A stretch of DNA of 64,000 nt from the NCBI RefSeq assembly GCF_000021945.1, contig NC_011831.1, forward strand, positions 248,001 through 312,000, written 5' to 3'. Source of the stretch: Chloroflexus aggregans DSM 9485. Its GTDB lineage: Bacteria; Chloroflexota; Chloroflexia; Chloroflexales; Chloroflexaceae. The notes beneath the pieces were generated by a model. It did no database searches. It was not told where the DNA came from and was given only the letters and a program-made list of their open reading frames with translations. The number at the start of each line of letters is the position of its first letter. The stretch's first letter is position 1. Positions 11,221 to 26,676 of this stretch are shown here, in pieces. The position numbers were made by a program, and so were the translations under genes.

Positions 11221-12894
11221 TTACGGTTCGAGACGTGAGAAGTAATCGCGGACGAAATCTTGCAAATAGATCGGGACACTCCCGCGATCCAACGCTTCGG
11301 TCGCCGTGCGCCGGTATTGGGGAAAAATCTGCTCGTAGGGCACTACCGACGGGGTATTTATCCCACTCTGCTGCCCTTGCCCCGGACGAACTTCGCTACT
11401 ACCACCGCTTCCCTGTTGACCGGGAATGAAATCGGGATCGCCAATTTGGCCGGAAGGATTGAACGGTTGGTAGACGGTATCGCTATTGCCACCGTGACCC
11501 TGCTGTGAACTGGGACGATTGGGATCAACGTTACCCGGCACATTGCTCTGCTGCTGCCCAAGATTATCGGCGGTTGAACCACCACCCTGGCCGGGTTGGC
11601 CTTGCTGCCCTTGGCCGGGTTGACCCTGTTGACCCTGACCGGGCTGACCCTGACCGGGTTGATTTGGTTGCCCTTGGCCTTGCTGTCCTTGTTGGCCTTG
11701 CTGCCCCTGTTGCCCTTGGCCTTGTTGGGCTTGCTGACCTTGCTGACCGGGTTGACCGGCCTGTGCGATCTGTTGACGAGCAGCTTGGGTGTTATTCAAG
11801 GCTTGCTGAACGGCTTGCTGGTTAGCGGCAGCGGCTTGTGTATTGCGAACTTGTTGACTCGCTTGTTGCAGGGCTTGAGCGGCTGCTTGGGTATCACCCC
11901 GTTCGAGCGCTTGGGCGGCATCTTGTAATGCCTGTGCCGTTGCCGGATCGGATGCGGCTAATTGCGCAGCCTGCTGGGCGAGTTCTTGGGCCAGTGCTTC
12001 CCGTTCAGCCGCATTCATCTGATCGAGGCTCGCAGCCAAATTCTCCAATTGCTGACGTAGTTGATCGAGGGTTGGCCGGGGCGAAGCCTGGTTATTTGAC
12101 AATTGTTCTAACCGGCGGGCTAACTGTTCGAGGGCTGCCTGGCGCGCATCGATCTGCGAGTTCAGTTGCCGGCGTAGCTGCATTTCGGCTTGGGCCAAAT
12201 CGGCCAGGGCTTCTTGCCGGTCGCCGGGATTACGGGCCAGCTCAGCCTGCAATTGACGTAAAATCTCCTCTAGCTGCGCACGCTGTTCGGGTGTAAGATC
12301 ATCACGTGCGGCCAATTCCTCTTCTAGTGCTGCCAACTGCTGATTCACCTGTTCAATCGTCTCGGCCACCGCCTGGCGTTCGGCCAAAATGCGATCCATC
12401 GGGTTGGGGAGGGTAAGCAAGGCCACGAGCACCAGTGCCGGCAACAATGCCCACAACAATGGTCGGCGTGGAATCGCGATAGGAATCTGGCGCGGATGTA
12501 ACCGCGTCGCCAACGCACTCGCATCGGCTTGCTGATACGGTGCCAACGGTGTATCAGCACCGCTCTCGTACAATTCAATAGCCGTCGACAATCGTTCACG
12601 CAGGTTGAGGATGCGATCAACCCGCTGAGCTGCTCGACGCGGTGGTAAAGGTTTGAAAGCCGCCACACCGATAATAACGAGTAGCCAAACGATAAGGGGT
12701 AGCGTGACCCACCAGCTCAGATGAGGGATCGGAGTCACCCATCCAAGCGCAGCAACCGCAGCACTACCGGTCAGGCCGATCCAAAGCGTGCGGCTGGCAA
12801 GAACCAACCCATCGCTGAGGCGTAACTTAAGGCTCAGTGGGCGCAAGTGTCGACGCAAGGTTTGGTAGGTTAAAGGGTCTACAGCCTGCATCAT
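11221..12894 (-). CDS. Gln/Ala-rich membrane protein with GQQ repeat tail, DUF4175-like
   Basis: A 557-residue protein. Three hydrophobic helices lie in the first 150 residues (ASRTLWIGLTGSAAVAALGW, WVTLPLIVWLLVIIGVAAF, and a third beginning RRPLLWALLPALVLVALL). A long Gln/Ala/Leu-rich coiled-coil region follows, to about residue 385, then a low-complexity G-Q-Q/G-Q-P repeat of about 70 residues, a Gly/Ser linker and a conserved-looking tail, VPYEQIFPQYRRTATEALD, ending in YLQDFVRDYFSRLEP. The architecture resembles DUF4175-type proteins placed before MoxR/VWA operons. ATG 12894 follows AGGAAGGA by six bases; a TTG start at 12921 is less likely. The function is unknown; the topology suggests a membrane scaffold with an extended tail. 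Confidence 0.7.
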   Translation of the reverse strand: MMQAVDPLTYQTLRRHLRPLSLKLRLSDGLVLASRTLWIGLTGSAAVAALGWVTPIPHLSWWVTLPLIVWLLVIIGVAAFKPLPPRRAAQRVDRILNLRERLSTAIELYESGADTPLAPYQQADASALATRLHPRQIPIAIPRRPLLWALLPALVLVALLTLPNPMDRILAERQAVAETIEQVNQQLAALEEELAARDDLTPEQRAQLEEILRQLQAELARNPGDRQEALADLAQAEMQLRRQLNSQIDARQAALEQLARRLEQLSNNQASPRPTLDQLRQQLENLAASLDQMNAAEREALAQELAQQAAQLAASDPATAQALQDAAQALERGDTQAAAQALQQASQQVRNTQAAAANQQAVQQALNNTQAARQQIAQAGQPGQQGQQAQQGQGQQGQQGQQGQQGQGQPNQPGQGQPGQGQQGQPGQGQQGQPGQGGGSTADNLGQQQSNVPGNVDPNRPSSQQGHGGNSDTVYQPFNPSGQIGDPDFIPGQQGSGGSSEVRPGQGQQSGINTPSVVPYEQIFPQYRRTATEALDRGSVPIYLQDFVRDYFSRLEP

Positions 12895-22390: not shown

Positions 22391-23635
22391 TTAGCGGCGT
22401 GGAGGTAACCACATCGCCAGCGTTCCATCGCTGTGGCGTTTGGCAATGCCACGCCCGACATCCAACACGTAGACCCCATCACGAGCGCTGTATGCCAAGG
22501 CCCGGCCATCGTATGACCAGAGATCGAATGACAACGCATAGGCATCAAAATAGTTGATCTGGGCTAAAAACGCCTCACTCGGAGCGAAGGTTACGAGAGA
22601 GCGTGGTGTACCGCCAGTACGGTTGACAACCTGCCAACGCACTTGGACAAAACCATCGGTGGTGCGTCCGGCGGGGGTGAGGTATGCGATCTGTTCACCG
22701 GTTGGCGACCAGAAAAACGCGATGACGTTATCGTTCGCTGCCGAAAGAGTCTGCACCTTGCCGTCAAGTCCAACCAGTTTTAGCGGTCCAAAGCCATTGG
22801 GACCGACCGTTGTGTAGGCAATTTCGTCGCTTTGCGGAGAGCGACCAAAGATAATTGCCGCCATTGGTTCACGAGCCAAGGCTTGGGTTTGGGTTTCACC
22901 GACCTTCACACGGGAGAGGACACTTTCCACCTTCTCGACCATCGGTGGTCCTTCTACCGGTGGCTGCGCTACATAGAAAAAGCTCTCGCCGTCAACACTC
23001 CATGCCGGCGCCTGAAAGAAGCCGGGGTCGTTGAGTTCGTAGAGCGGTTGTTGCCGACCGGGTTGCACTGTTACGACGCGGCCATCTTCAAAGAGTGAGC
23101 CGTCGATATGGACGAGGAGTGATGAGCTGTCGGGTTGCCAAGCCAGATACAGGGAACTCGTTGAACTACTCACCAGCTCGGCGGGTCGTGAACCATCGGC
23201 CGGGACAATGTGTAACCCCAAGCCACGGGCGCGGTTCGATAGGAACGAGAGTGAGCGGCTGTCGGGTGACCAGACGATGTAGAGTGGCGGGTTGATCGTT
23301 GAGCGGTACAGTTCGAGACGGTTGCCGGTCGTTAAATCGATCACACGCAGCACGCTGGCATTCCCTTCCTGACCAATATATGCGATCCGGGTGCCATCGG
23401 GGGCTAATGCCGGGAAGCGAAACAACTCTGGACTGATGTCCTCGGCGAGTACTTGGACGGTGCCTTGACGATCGATGAGCGCTAATCTGCGATCTGGGCC
23501 TACGACCAGTAGTTTTTGGTCGAGTGGCCGATTGGTGAATAGGAGGAAGGTGATGATCCCGGCACTGAGAGTGCCGATCAGGATAACGATGCTGAGTAGG
23601 CCGATGAGCGTCAGAAGGATCCGCCGCGCAGCCAT
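22391..23635 (-). CDS. membrane-anchored WD40/TolB-like beta-propeller protein
   Basis: A 414-residue protein with an N-terminal anchor (ILLTLIGLLSIVILIGTLSAG) and an exported beta-propeller built of repeats such as FPALAPDGTRIAYIGQ, IVWSPDSRSLSFLSN, LAWQPDSSSLLVH, PAWSVDGESFFYV and FFWSPTGEQIAYL, the WSPDG-type blades of TolB/WD40-like (PD40) proteins. ATG 23635 has AAAGGAG seven bases upstream; the frame stays open into the adjacent repeat array but that extension is not protein-like. Its promoter must lie in the repeat array: a TATACT on the minus strand at 23674-23679 belongs to the first repeat unit. It probably monitors or scaffolds envelope components; the ligand is unknown. Confidence 0.8.
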   Translation of the reverse strand: MAARRILLTLIGLLSIVILIGTLSAGIITFLLFTNRPLDQKLLVVGPDRRLALIDRQGTVQVLAEDISPELFRFPALAPDGTRIAYIGQEGNASVLRVIDLTTGNRLELYRSTINPPLYIVWSPDSRSLSFLSNRARGLGLHIVPADGSRPAELVSSSTSSLYLAWQPDSSSLLVHIDGSLFEDGRVVTVQPGRQQPLYELNDPGFFQAPAWSVDGESFFYVAQPPVEGPPMVEKVESVLSRVKVGETQTQALAREPMAAIIFGRSPQSDEIAYTTVGPNGFGPLKLVGLDGKVQTLSAANDNVIAFFWSPTGEQIAYLTPAGRTTDGFVQVRWQVVNRTGGTPRSLVTFAPSEAFLAQINYFDAYALSFDLWSYDGRALAYSARDGVYVLDVGRGIAKRHSDGTLAMWLPPRR

Positions 23636-23660
23636 GGGGTTGCTCCTTTCCGGGAACAGG

Positions 23661-25094
23661 ATGGTGTATAAGTAGTATAACAAGTTTTTTTAACGCAGAG
23701 GCGCGGAGGACGCAGAGGCGCAGAGGGGCAAAGAACGCAAAGACGTTGATGCACAGAACGCCACCGGTAGGGGCACGGCACCGCCGTGCCCCTACGCAGG
23801 GCAAAAGGGCGCAGAGGGGTTAGCGCAAAGGCTGTTAACGCAAAGGCGCAAAGACGCAGAGGCGCAAAGGGCGCAGAGGCGGTAAAGGACGTGTATGGTG
23901 TATAAGTAGTATAACAAGATTTTTAACGCAGAGGTGCGGAGGACGCAGAGGCGCAGAGGGGCAAAGAACGCAAAGACGTTGATGCACAGAACGCCACCGG
24001 TAGGGGCACGGCACCGCCGTGCCCTTACGCAGGGCAAAAGGGCGCAGAGGGGTTAGCGCAAAGGCCGTTAACGCAAAGGCGCAAAGCGCAGAGGCGCAAA
24101 GGATGCTGACGCACAGGCCACCACCGGTAGGGGCACGGCACCGCCGTGCCCCTACGCAGGGCAAAAGGGCGCAGAGGCGGTAAAGGACGTGTATGGTGTA
24201 TAAGTAGTATAACAAGATTTTTAACGCAGAGGCGCGGAGGACGCAGAGGCGCAGAGGGGCAAAGAACGCAAAGACGTTGATGCACAGAACGCCACCGGTA
24301 GGGGCACGGCGGTGCCGTGCCCCTACGCAGGGCAAAAGGGCGCAGAGGGGTTAGCGCAAAGGCTGTTAACGCAAAGGCGCAAAGCGCAGAGGCGCAAAGG
24401 GCGCAGAGGCGCAGAGGGGCAAAGAACGCAAAGACGTTGATGCACAGAACGCCACCGGTAGGGGCACGGCACCGCCGTGCCCTTACGCAGGGCAAAAGGG
24501 CGCAGAGGGGTTAGCGCAAAGGCCGTTAACGCAAAGGCGCAAAGCGCAGAGGCGCAAAGGATGCTGACGCACAGGCCACCACCGGTAGGGGCACGGCACC
24601 GCCGTGCCCCTACGCAGGGCAAAAGGGCGCAGAGGGGTTAGCGCAAAGGCTGTTAACGCAAAGGCGCAAAGACGCAGAGGCGCAAAGCGCAGAGGCGCGA
24701 AGGGCGCAGAGGCGGTAAAGGACGTGTATGGTGTATAAGTAGTATAACAAGATTTTTAACGCAGAGGCGCGGAGGACGCAGAGGCGCAGAGGGGCAAAGA
24801 ACGCAAAGACGTTGATGCACAGAACGCCACCGGTAGGGGCACGGCACCGCCGTGCCCCTACGCAGGGCAAAAGGGCGCAGAGGGGTTAGCGCAAAGGCTG
24901 TTAACGCAAAGGCGCAAAGACGCAGAGGCGCAAAGGGCGCAGAGGCGGTAAAGGACGTGTATGGTGTATAAGTAGTATAACAAGATTTTTAACGCAGAGG
25001 CGCGGAGGACGCAAAGGCGCAGAGGGGCAAAGAACGCAAAGACGTTGATGCACAGAACGCCACCGGTAGGGGCACGGCGATGCTGTGCCCCTAC
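23661..25094. repeat. complex tandem repeat array with eight hairpins
   Basis: A 1.43-kb array without genes. Five long units start with the same segment (ATGGTGTATAAGTAGTATA) at 23661, 23895, 24193, 24728 and 24961. Within the units are runs of a degenerate 7-8 base word (GCGCAGAG, GCGCAAAG, ACGCAAAG) and eight copies of a 27-base hairpin with arms TAGGGGCACGGC and GCCGTGCCCCTA, beginning at 23768, 24001, 24128, 24299, 24459, 24586, 24834 and 25067. Open frames across it are low-complexity (Cys/Ala/Leu/Arg) and show no protein family features. There are no unique spacers, so it is not CRISPR. It separates the WD40 gene from menF. Confidence 0.95.
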
Positions 25095-25118
25095 TTTTTC
25101 CTGTTGCGAAACGTGTTA

Positions 25119-25130
25119 CTATGTACATAG
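25119..25130. promoter_or_regulatory. palindrome upstream of menF
   Basis: CTATGTACATAG, a perfect 12-base palindrome about 90 bases before the menF start, in the unique sequence right after the repeat array. It may be an operator; no partner is known. Confidence 0.25.
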
Positions 25131-25218: not shown

Positions 25219-26676
25219 TTGGAACATATGGCAAATCCACTTCTTGGGGTACGGGTAACGACCGCTACTCTCCGCGAAGTGCCTCGTATGGAGGCAGCAG
25301 CCGAGATTGCCCGACGCCGTGCGCGCGAATTAGGGCGTCCTGTTTTGGTCAGTGTGACAACACAAGTTGGTTTGCGTGATCCACTAGCGTTATTTGCCCG
25401 TGGTGCCGGCGTGACCCATAACCGTTTTTTTTGGAGTGTGCCGGCAGCCAATTTCGAGATTACCGGTCTAGGGGCAGCATGGAGCTTTACGCCTCCTCTC
25501 TCGACCGATCGCTTTGCCGCCAGTGCTGAGGCATGGCGGCAATTGATGGCTGAAGCGGTGATTGATGCCGACCGTGATCTACCGGTGCAAGGACCGCTGG
25601 CGGTGGCCGGGTTTCGTTTTGATCCCGATCATCCGCCGAGCGAGTTGTGGCGTGATTATCCCCATGCGCTACTCTTGGTGCCACGCTTGTTGATCGTGCG
25701 TCACGGTGATGTCACTACCTTAACGGTGAACGGTATGGTCGATGCGCAGAGTTCGACCCTGGCACTGGGGGCGGCAGCAGCCCGTCGCTTGCAAGCGCTG
25801 ATCGGGTTGCCGTGGCGGCCTAACCGACCACCGCTGGATGTGCAAGTTGATGTATCGCTTGATCCTGACGTGTGGAAGGCAATTGTTGCCGATGCTGTTA
25901 CCGATCTGCGTGCCGGTATGCTCGAGAAGGTGGTGTTGGCCCGTGCCATGCGGTTACGCGGGCCAGAGCCGTTCGATACGGCGGCTACCCTCGATACGCT
26001 GCGTCGTGATTATCCGCATACCTTTATCTTTGCAGTAGCACGCGGTGGACGCACGTTTCTGGGAGCTTCTCCCGAACGCTTGGTGTCTCTGCGTAATGGC
26101 GATGTGGCCGCTTCGGCGTTAGCCGGTTCGGCGCCACGTGGAAAAACGCCTGAAGAAGATGCTGCGTTGGCCTCGGCACTGTTGCAAAGCGAAAAGGATC
26201 GTGCCGAACACGCTTTTGTCGTGCAGATGATACGGGCAGCGCTGACCGATTACTGCGATGCGGTCCAAGCACCTGAGCTGCCTACGATTATGCAGGTGCG
26301 GAATGTCCAACATCTGTTTACGCCGATCACAGCCCGCATCCGTCCCGGTTACGATATCTTCGATCTGGTGCAACGGCTGCATCCTACGCCGGCAGTTGGT
26401 GGAAAGCCGGGTCCGGCTGCACTGGCTTGGATCCGCGCCCGTGAACAGCTCGACCGCGGTTGGTATGCTGCACCGGTTGGGTGGGTTGATGCGCGTGGTG
26501 ATGGCGAGTTCGCTGTAGCACTACGTTCGGCATTGATCGGTCGCCGTGAAGCGACGTTGTTTGCCGGCTGTGGCATTGTGGCCGCTTCTGATCCTGAGCG
26601 CGAGTTGGCCGAGACGCGGATAAAGTTGCGTGCGATGCTGGGCGCACTCGGTGTTGGTGATGAGATGATAGGGTAA
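25219..26676 (+). CDS. menF: isochorismate synthase
   Basis: A 485-residue chorismate-utilising enzyme that makes isochorismate for menaquinone. The C-terminal catalytic half has MLEKVVLARAMRLRGPEPFD, FIFAVARGGRTFLGASPERLV, AGSAPRGKTPEEDAALASAL, LPTIMQVRNVQHLFTPITAR, the LHPTPAVGGKPG segment and APVGWVDARGDGEFAVALRS, all diagnostic of MenF/EntC. TTG 25219 has AGAAGG six bases upstream; ATG 25228 is the alternative with a poorer site. Genomic pairing with menD downstream (about 110 bases) supports menaquinone rather than siderophore use. Menaquinone is the known quinone of Chloroflexus. Confidence 0.92.
   Translation: MEHMANPLLGVRVTTATLREVPRMEAAAEIARRRARELGRPVLVSVTTQVGLRDPLALFARGAGVTHNRFFWSVPAANFEITGLGAAWSFTPPLSTDRFAASAEAWRQLMAEAVIDADRDLPVQGPLAVAGFRFDPDHPPSELWRDYPHALLLVPRLLIVRHGDVTTLTVNGMVDAQSSTLALGAAAARRLQALIGLPWRPNRPPLDVQVDVSLDPDVWKAIVADAVTDLRAGMLEKVVLARAMRLRGPEPFDTAATLDTLRRDYPHTFIFAVARGGRTFLGASPERLVSLRNGDVAASALAGSAPRGKTPEEDAALASALLQSEKDRAEHAFVVQMIRAALTDYCDAVQAPELPTIMQVRNVQHLFTPITARIRPGYDIFDLVQRLHPTPAVGGKPGPAALAWIRAREQLDRGWYAAPVGWVDARGDGEFAVALRSALIGRREATLFAGCGIVAASDPERELAETRIKLRAMLGALGVGDEMIG

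Follow-up and report, generated by a model that had tools for sequence, protein, structure and literature searches.

How a tandem array of long, unequal units came to lie between two divergent genes of the thermophilic green bacterium Chloroflexus aggregans DSM 9485, and what those units are made of, is the question raised by this locus, which we studied in a window of 64,000 nucleotides (the whole stretch of DNA analysed). The array separates a leftward gene encoding PD40 repeats (start codon near 23638) from a rightward isochorismate synthase gene (Table 1). The initial annotation, whose coordinates and counts proved correct, had described five long units 230-540 bases apart with a shared opening segment, and we found these units starting at 23661, 23895, 24193, 24728 and 24961 (spacings of 234, 298, 535 and 233 bp), each opening with the 30-bp segment ATGGTGTATAAGTAGTATAACAAGATTTTT.

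Table 1 Positions of the array, its components and the neighbouring features in the window
Feature	Position	Strand	Remarks
Downstream gene	22391..23638	-	PD40 (WD40-like) beta-propeller repeats, hydrophobic N-terminus; TolB-like, far below the TolB cut-off
Whole tandem array	23661..25094	.	five units headed by the putative promoter: 234, 298, 535 and 233 bp, and a truncated fifth
Putative promoter copy 1	23661..23690	-	-10 TATACT at 23674-23679, TG at 23681-23682; gene-proximal
Putative promoter copy 2	23895..23924	-	
Putative promoter copy 3	24193..24222	-	
Putative promoter copy 4	24728..24757	-	
Putative promoter copy 5	24961..24990	-	
CGCARAG words (n = 64)	23691..25055	+	in runs on both sides of each hairpin, several of them starting with TTAA
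REP hairpin 1	23767..23795	.	loop ACC
REP hairpin 2	24000..24028	.	loop ACC, CCCTTAC variant
REP hairpin 3	24127..24155	.	loop ACC
REP hairpin 4	24298..24326	.	loop GGT, 'flipped' copy
REP hairpin 5	24458..24486	.	loop ACC, CCCTTAC variant; in the exact copy of hairpin 2's block
REP hairpin 6	24585..24613	.	loop ACC; in the exact copy of hairpin 3's block
REP hairpin 7	24833..24861	.	loop ACC
REP hairpin 8	25066..25094	.	loop GAT and one further change; TTTTT follows
234-bp block	23944..24177	.	0 mismatches against 24402-24635
Block GAAACGTGTTACTATGTA	25108..25125	+	upstream of the isochorismate synthase gene, just past the right edge of the array; common to G004
Isochorismate synthase (menF-type) gene	25228..26676	+	other side of the array

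With P for the 30-bp segment, A and B for word runs and H for the hairpin, the units read P-A-H-B, P-A-H-B-H-B, P-A-H-B-H-B-H-B, P-A-H-B and P-A-H. The runs of CGCARAG words noticed earlier were confirmed, all 64 words lying on the forward strand and none on the reverse. TRF reported periods of 233 bp and 160 bp (scores 840, 790 and 618), long stretches were 97-99% identical at offsets of 233, 298 and 535, and we interpret the exact copy of the 234-bp block as a recent segmental duplication or conversion. The array is not of the CRISPR kind, the sequences between its hairpins being themselves repeated and variable in length, and it had no match in the plasmid collection. Within the host genome, a single contig of 4,684,931 bases, at least about 35 repeat arrays of such material were counted as word clusters in stretches chosen from pattern matches.

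All eight hairpins follow the pattern GTAGGGGCACGGC-NNN-GCCGTGCCCCTAC, so that the earlier count of eight stands while the length given as 27 bases is corrected to 29 bp (13-bp arms and a 3-base loop). They are strong (z -3.4 to -5.4), and with ≤2 mismatches the hairpin occurs at 206 genome sites against 0 for a reversed control, which excludes chance; many arrays of the host genome contain it, each with its own period. Together with palindromes of other cores it forms a GTAGGGGC..GCCCCTAC set, of which perfect members number 59 in the host genome (control 0) and 156 in another Chloroflexus genome, G003. Its ends, GTAG...CTAC, its palindrome within 20-40 bp, its high copy number and the presence of a RAYT gene in the genome (NF047646, 88.1 bits against an NCBIfam cut-off of 80) make assignment to the GTAG-tagged REP class a good one on sequence grounds. 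This class is known from several phyla including Chloroflexi (PMC3733652, PMC2817692) and its spread is attributed to RAYT transposases, at least as a working view (PMC3733652). The intact RAYT gene is flanked by a different palindrome, AGCACAGGATTAATCCTGTGCT, and since no RAYT gene with this exact hairpin at its flanks turned up in the host genome, mobility of this REP would follow from its class; RAYT genes and REP families show no strict match (PMC3733652), so the missing cognate weakens the claim of mobility, not that of membership. A truncated second RAYT gene (L065:14978-15337) has the GTAG REP GTAGGGGCGGGTTT inside its reading frame (GAGLKPAPT). Other arrays show further arrangements, with about 31 REP hairpins and zero CGCARAG words at L045:2942-4349 (genome about 1097.9-1099.3 kb), 13 hairpins at L046:3107-4122, and a separate array of GTAGGGGCACAGCGGTGCTGTGCCCCTAC hairpins of mostly 125-bp period at G000:C1:4392476-4393769.

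Read on the coding strand, the 30-bp segment opening each unit has the form of an extended -10 core promoter, TGnTATACT, and appears to be that of the leftward PD40/TolB-like gene, with predicted activity. Since a sigma-70 scan requiring a -35 hexamer returned no site at this promoter, we identify it from its conservation, sequence and position. Every genus-invariant residue of the promoter block is kept in all five window copies, and copy 1 differs by one A-to-T change in the upstream T/A run and at the TTTTTAACGC junction. Elsewhere in the 4.68-Mb genome no copy of the segment was found at ≤3 mismatches, and the promoter joined to TTTTTAACGC is confined to this array, which identifies it as captured local DNA and not as part of the dispersed repeat. 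Among 29 arrays scanned in the host genome, this one alone clearly repeats a promoter-like AT-rich segment; a possible second case of flank capture, the AT-rich repeated segment at L037:5944-6479, shares part of its sequence with a word element dispersed in other Chloroflexus genomes.

Comparison with relatives showed that the PD40-gene ortholog is present in eight of eight Chloroflexus genomes, all of which conserve the upstream block AAAtCtTGnTATACTACnnAnACA along with the ribosome-binding site and start codon; AAAtCtTGnTATACTACnnAnACA occurs once and is followed by GGAAAGGAG and the start codon. DNA farther upstream of the promoter block does not align between species. The promoter is single and the array is missing in all seven other genomes, the upstream DNA being limited to about 60 and 470 bp in two of them, and in genome G004 both genes are present in this arrangement but the array between them is missing. 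The block GAAACGTGTTACTATGTA also precedes the isochorismate synthase gene of G004. A single promoter in the relatives and none elsewhere in the host genome together mark the array as a tandem amplification of promoter, word run and REP hairpin. Judged from the sequences, gene-proximal copy 1 is the orthologous original, and the remaining four were copied along with the repeat. Gene content just upstream of the conserved promoter varies among Chloroflexus species (L026, L028, L029, L031 and L032), comprising regulator-like genes, a CRISPR array and others, and we interpret this DNA as a recurrent rearrangement boundary. The CRISPR array upstream of the ortholog in L031 (G003, about 4538766-4543007) has a GTAG REP (GTAGGGGCGACGCATGCGTCGCCCCTAC) in a spacer position. 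A CCCTC..GGGAGAGGG..GAGGG motif of intrastrand-triplex type lies beside repeat loci at the L044 array end and in the L032 upstream region (compare PMC4666352).

We consider it likely that the locus is a locally amplified composite repeat, a REP/word array that captured and multiplied the promoter of the neighbouring gene. As the orthologous sites without an array suggest, a run of dispersed CGCARAG words with a GTAG-type REP hairpin would have landed immediately upstream of the PD40/TolB-like gene's core promoter. Later tandem duplications would have had their breakpoints just downstream of the promoter, so that every added unit took a copy of the promoter with it. That the promoter was copied can be read directly from the array; its route was probably unequal recombination or replication slippage, aided by strong hairpins and low-complexity words. 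Nested duplications of unequal length, including the exact 234-bp block, would then have added hairpins. That this is a tandem array, as first described, and one grown by duplication, is borne out by the exact block copy and by its being missing in seven relatives. One gene would then be faced by a series of five complete extended -10 promoters with REP hairpins between them, compared with one promoter in the relatives. Transcription of the PD40 gene would likely be raised or buffered, and the distal copies would give long 5' leaders containing hairpins. The origin is most simply neutral or selfish, and no benefit can be argued.

A different reading takes the array for a selected regulatory one, in which the hairpins, in leader RNA or as DNA, are sites for protein binding, mRNA stability or gyrase and the copy number tunes the gene. 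The strength of the hairpins, the position between two divergent genes and the five intact promoters would suit it, as would hairpin 8, which closes the array on the right and, with the following TTTTT, resembles a plus-strand intrinsic terminator. However, the roughly 35 arrays of the same material elsewhere have different periods and suggest a general repeat process, the array is missing in seven sister species despite the conserved gene and promoter, and Rfam returned no family match up to E 1; we therefore regard this reading as unlikely. Near-identical repeats are hard to assemble, and a false duplication or collapse could be suspected, but the genome is one contig holding many such arrays, the unit lengths differ and the distinct variants (CCCTTAC, GGT and GAT) form a coherent nested pattern, which makes an assembly artefact very improbable. 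That the segment opens every unit might also suggest an element-borne promoter belonging to the dispersed repeat, a reading with hardly any probability left and refuted for the host genome and the genus: the segment is unique to the array and, at the orthologous sites of seven genomes, is single and repeat-free. Minus-strand ORFs of 156-212 aa are open across the array, but they stem from the word repeat and cross hairpins and promoters, and the two searched had no Pfam match, so a protein-coding repeat was rejected as having next to no likelihood. Amplification with promoter capture explains the structure of the array well.

Because the arms are symmetric, the orientation of a hairpin can be read from its three loop bases alone. 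The loops comprise six ACC, one GGT and one GAT with no alternating orientation; the last belongs to copy 8, where GAT had been noted and one further change was seen. Copy 4 had been described as an exact reverse complement of the element, and it is so at 29 of 29 positions relative to copies 1, 3, 6 and 7. A recent flip of its loop, by hairpin-mediated inversion (a strand switch across the palindromic arms), would account for this exact inversion between unchanged flanks. Against it, a census of sampled arrays in word orientation counted 35 GGT loops, more than of any other kind, and 10 ACC loops, of which six belong to this array; copy 8 at the far end has the related loop GAT; and an older GGT loop that was retained, or one gained by conversion from a different array, would serve equally well. 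A recent flip is thus doubtful: the inversion proposed for copy 4 holds as a relation between copies, but its polarity is doubtful, since copy 4 looks typical genome-wide and it may be the ACC copies that are derived.

Beyond the array, the word repeat TTAACGCARAGRCGCARAGRCGCARAG was found in at least 112 stretches, with a chance expectation estimated by base counting at about 0.001. The matches listed include Verrucomicrobia, Lentisphaerae, Acidobacteria, Planctomycetes, Spirochaetes, Chlamydiae, Armatimonadota, Sorangium, Desulfuromonadales, Gammaproteobacteria, Chloroflexota and Methanosarcinales, many of them in metagenome bins, where single taxon assignments may be wrong. Within Chloroflexota, where a search for the words had been proposed, they were found concentrated in the host's own family (Chloroflexaceae). 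TTAA-(CGCARAG)n runs span at least twelve phyla and are often paired, inverted and pointing inward. Among the matches listed, an inverted partner lay within 300 bp downstream of 45 of the 103 runs with enough flank and upstream of 3 of them (control 5/1652), and the pairs form palindromic elements with a median of 116 bp. Outside Chloroflexus the word element thus has terminal inverted repeats, as MITEs do; the TTAA at its ends could be a target or part of the ends.

Word pairs also cluster by GxxExxY (PF13366) genes. Around 75 such genes, tandem word pairs numbered 38 in the 29 kb lying no more than 200 bp from a gene and 10 in the 177 kb farther away, a density about 23-fold higher near the genes; some of the surveyed genomes were chosen for holding the word, a choice of which the distance effect within loci is independent. 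Within 400 bp of the genes 31 pairs pointed inward and 9 outward, six of the 75 genes had words on both sides, and at some loci, L269 and L212 among them, the words framing the gene lie tens of bases from it. Loci with such clusters among L193-L275 are L196, L201, L207, L212, L224, L226, L227, L236, L237, L244, L260, L269 and L271, mostly with inverted flanks. Y1 transposase loci contained 0 word pairs in 36 kb. Conversely, a GxxExxY gene lay near the word run in 2 of the 112 stretches among the matches listed, most runs having none. In the open literature searched, the word sequences of both strands gave chance primer matches or nothing, the word runs not being printed, and the GxxExxY papers found do not describe the association. 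This clustering points to a cassette with word-run ends, a lead and not a demonstration. Tentatively, and with somewhat less than even likelihood, we propose an undescribed, pan-prokaryotic mobile cassette composed of TTAA-(CGCARAG)n, a GxxExxY (PD-(D/E)XK-fold) gene and (CTYTGCG)n-TTAA, with the words as its terminal inverted repeats and with short, palindromic derivatives formed by deletion in both bacteria and archaea; one-armed remnants in Chloroflexus would have joined GTAG REPs and been amplified tandemly, here multiplying a promoter. The Chloroflexus word runs may be such remnants.

REP sequences are usually discussed as gene-end elements affecting supercoiling, termination or mRNA stability. 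The present array illustrates how a promoter can be multiplied where it stands by repeats that spread, with promoter number potentially tunable, and promoter capture is what is new relative to known REP-type arrays. GTAG REPs and REPtrons (PMC3733652, PMC2817692) likewise combine a short palindrome, a terminal GTAG, many copies and a RAYT gene in the genome. Unlike them, the array hairpin, a near-perfect palindrome, is tagged at both ends, sits within CGCARAG word runs, has been amplified as part of long tandem units, and was found flanking no RAYT gene. BIMEs, the enterobacterial REP clusters, also have conserved sequences between clustered REPs; the array differs in that its loops lie mostly in one orientation instead of alternating, and its units hold word runs and a captured promoter. 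As in bacterial minisatellites or VNTRs of promoter regions, tandem units lie upstream of a gene whose expression copy number could alter, but each unit holds a whole core promoter, so it is promoter number, not spacing, that would change. The short word elements of other phyla resemble MITEs in size and in their inverted ends, TTAA-CGCARAG...CTYTGCG, whereas these ends are runs of an 8-bp word and the longer form frames a GxxExxY gene in place of a known transposase. The word repeat has the broader weight, being common to distant phyla, with an inverted arrangement and a GxxExxY link that point to a mobile cassette. Elsewhere in the window, at 11584-11742, short GC-rich tandem repeats with TTGGCCTTGCTG-like units of 9-24 bp were observed.
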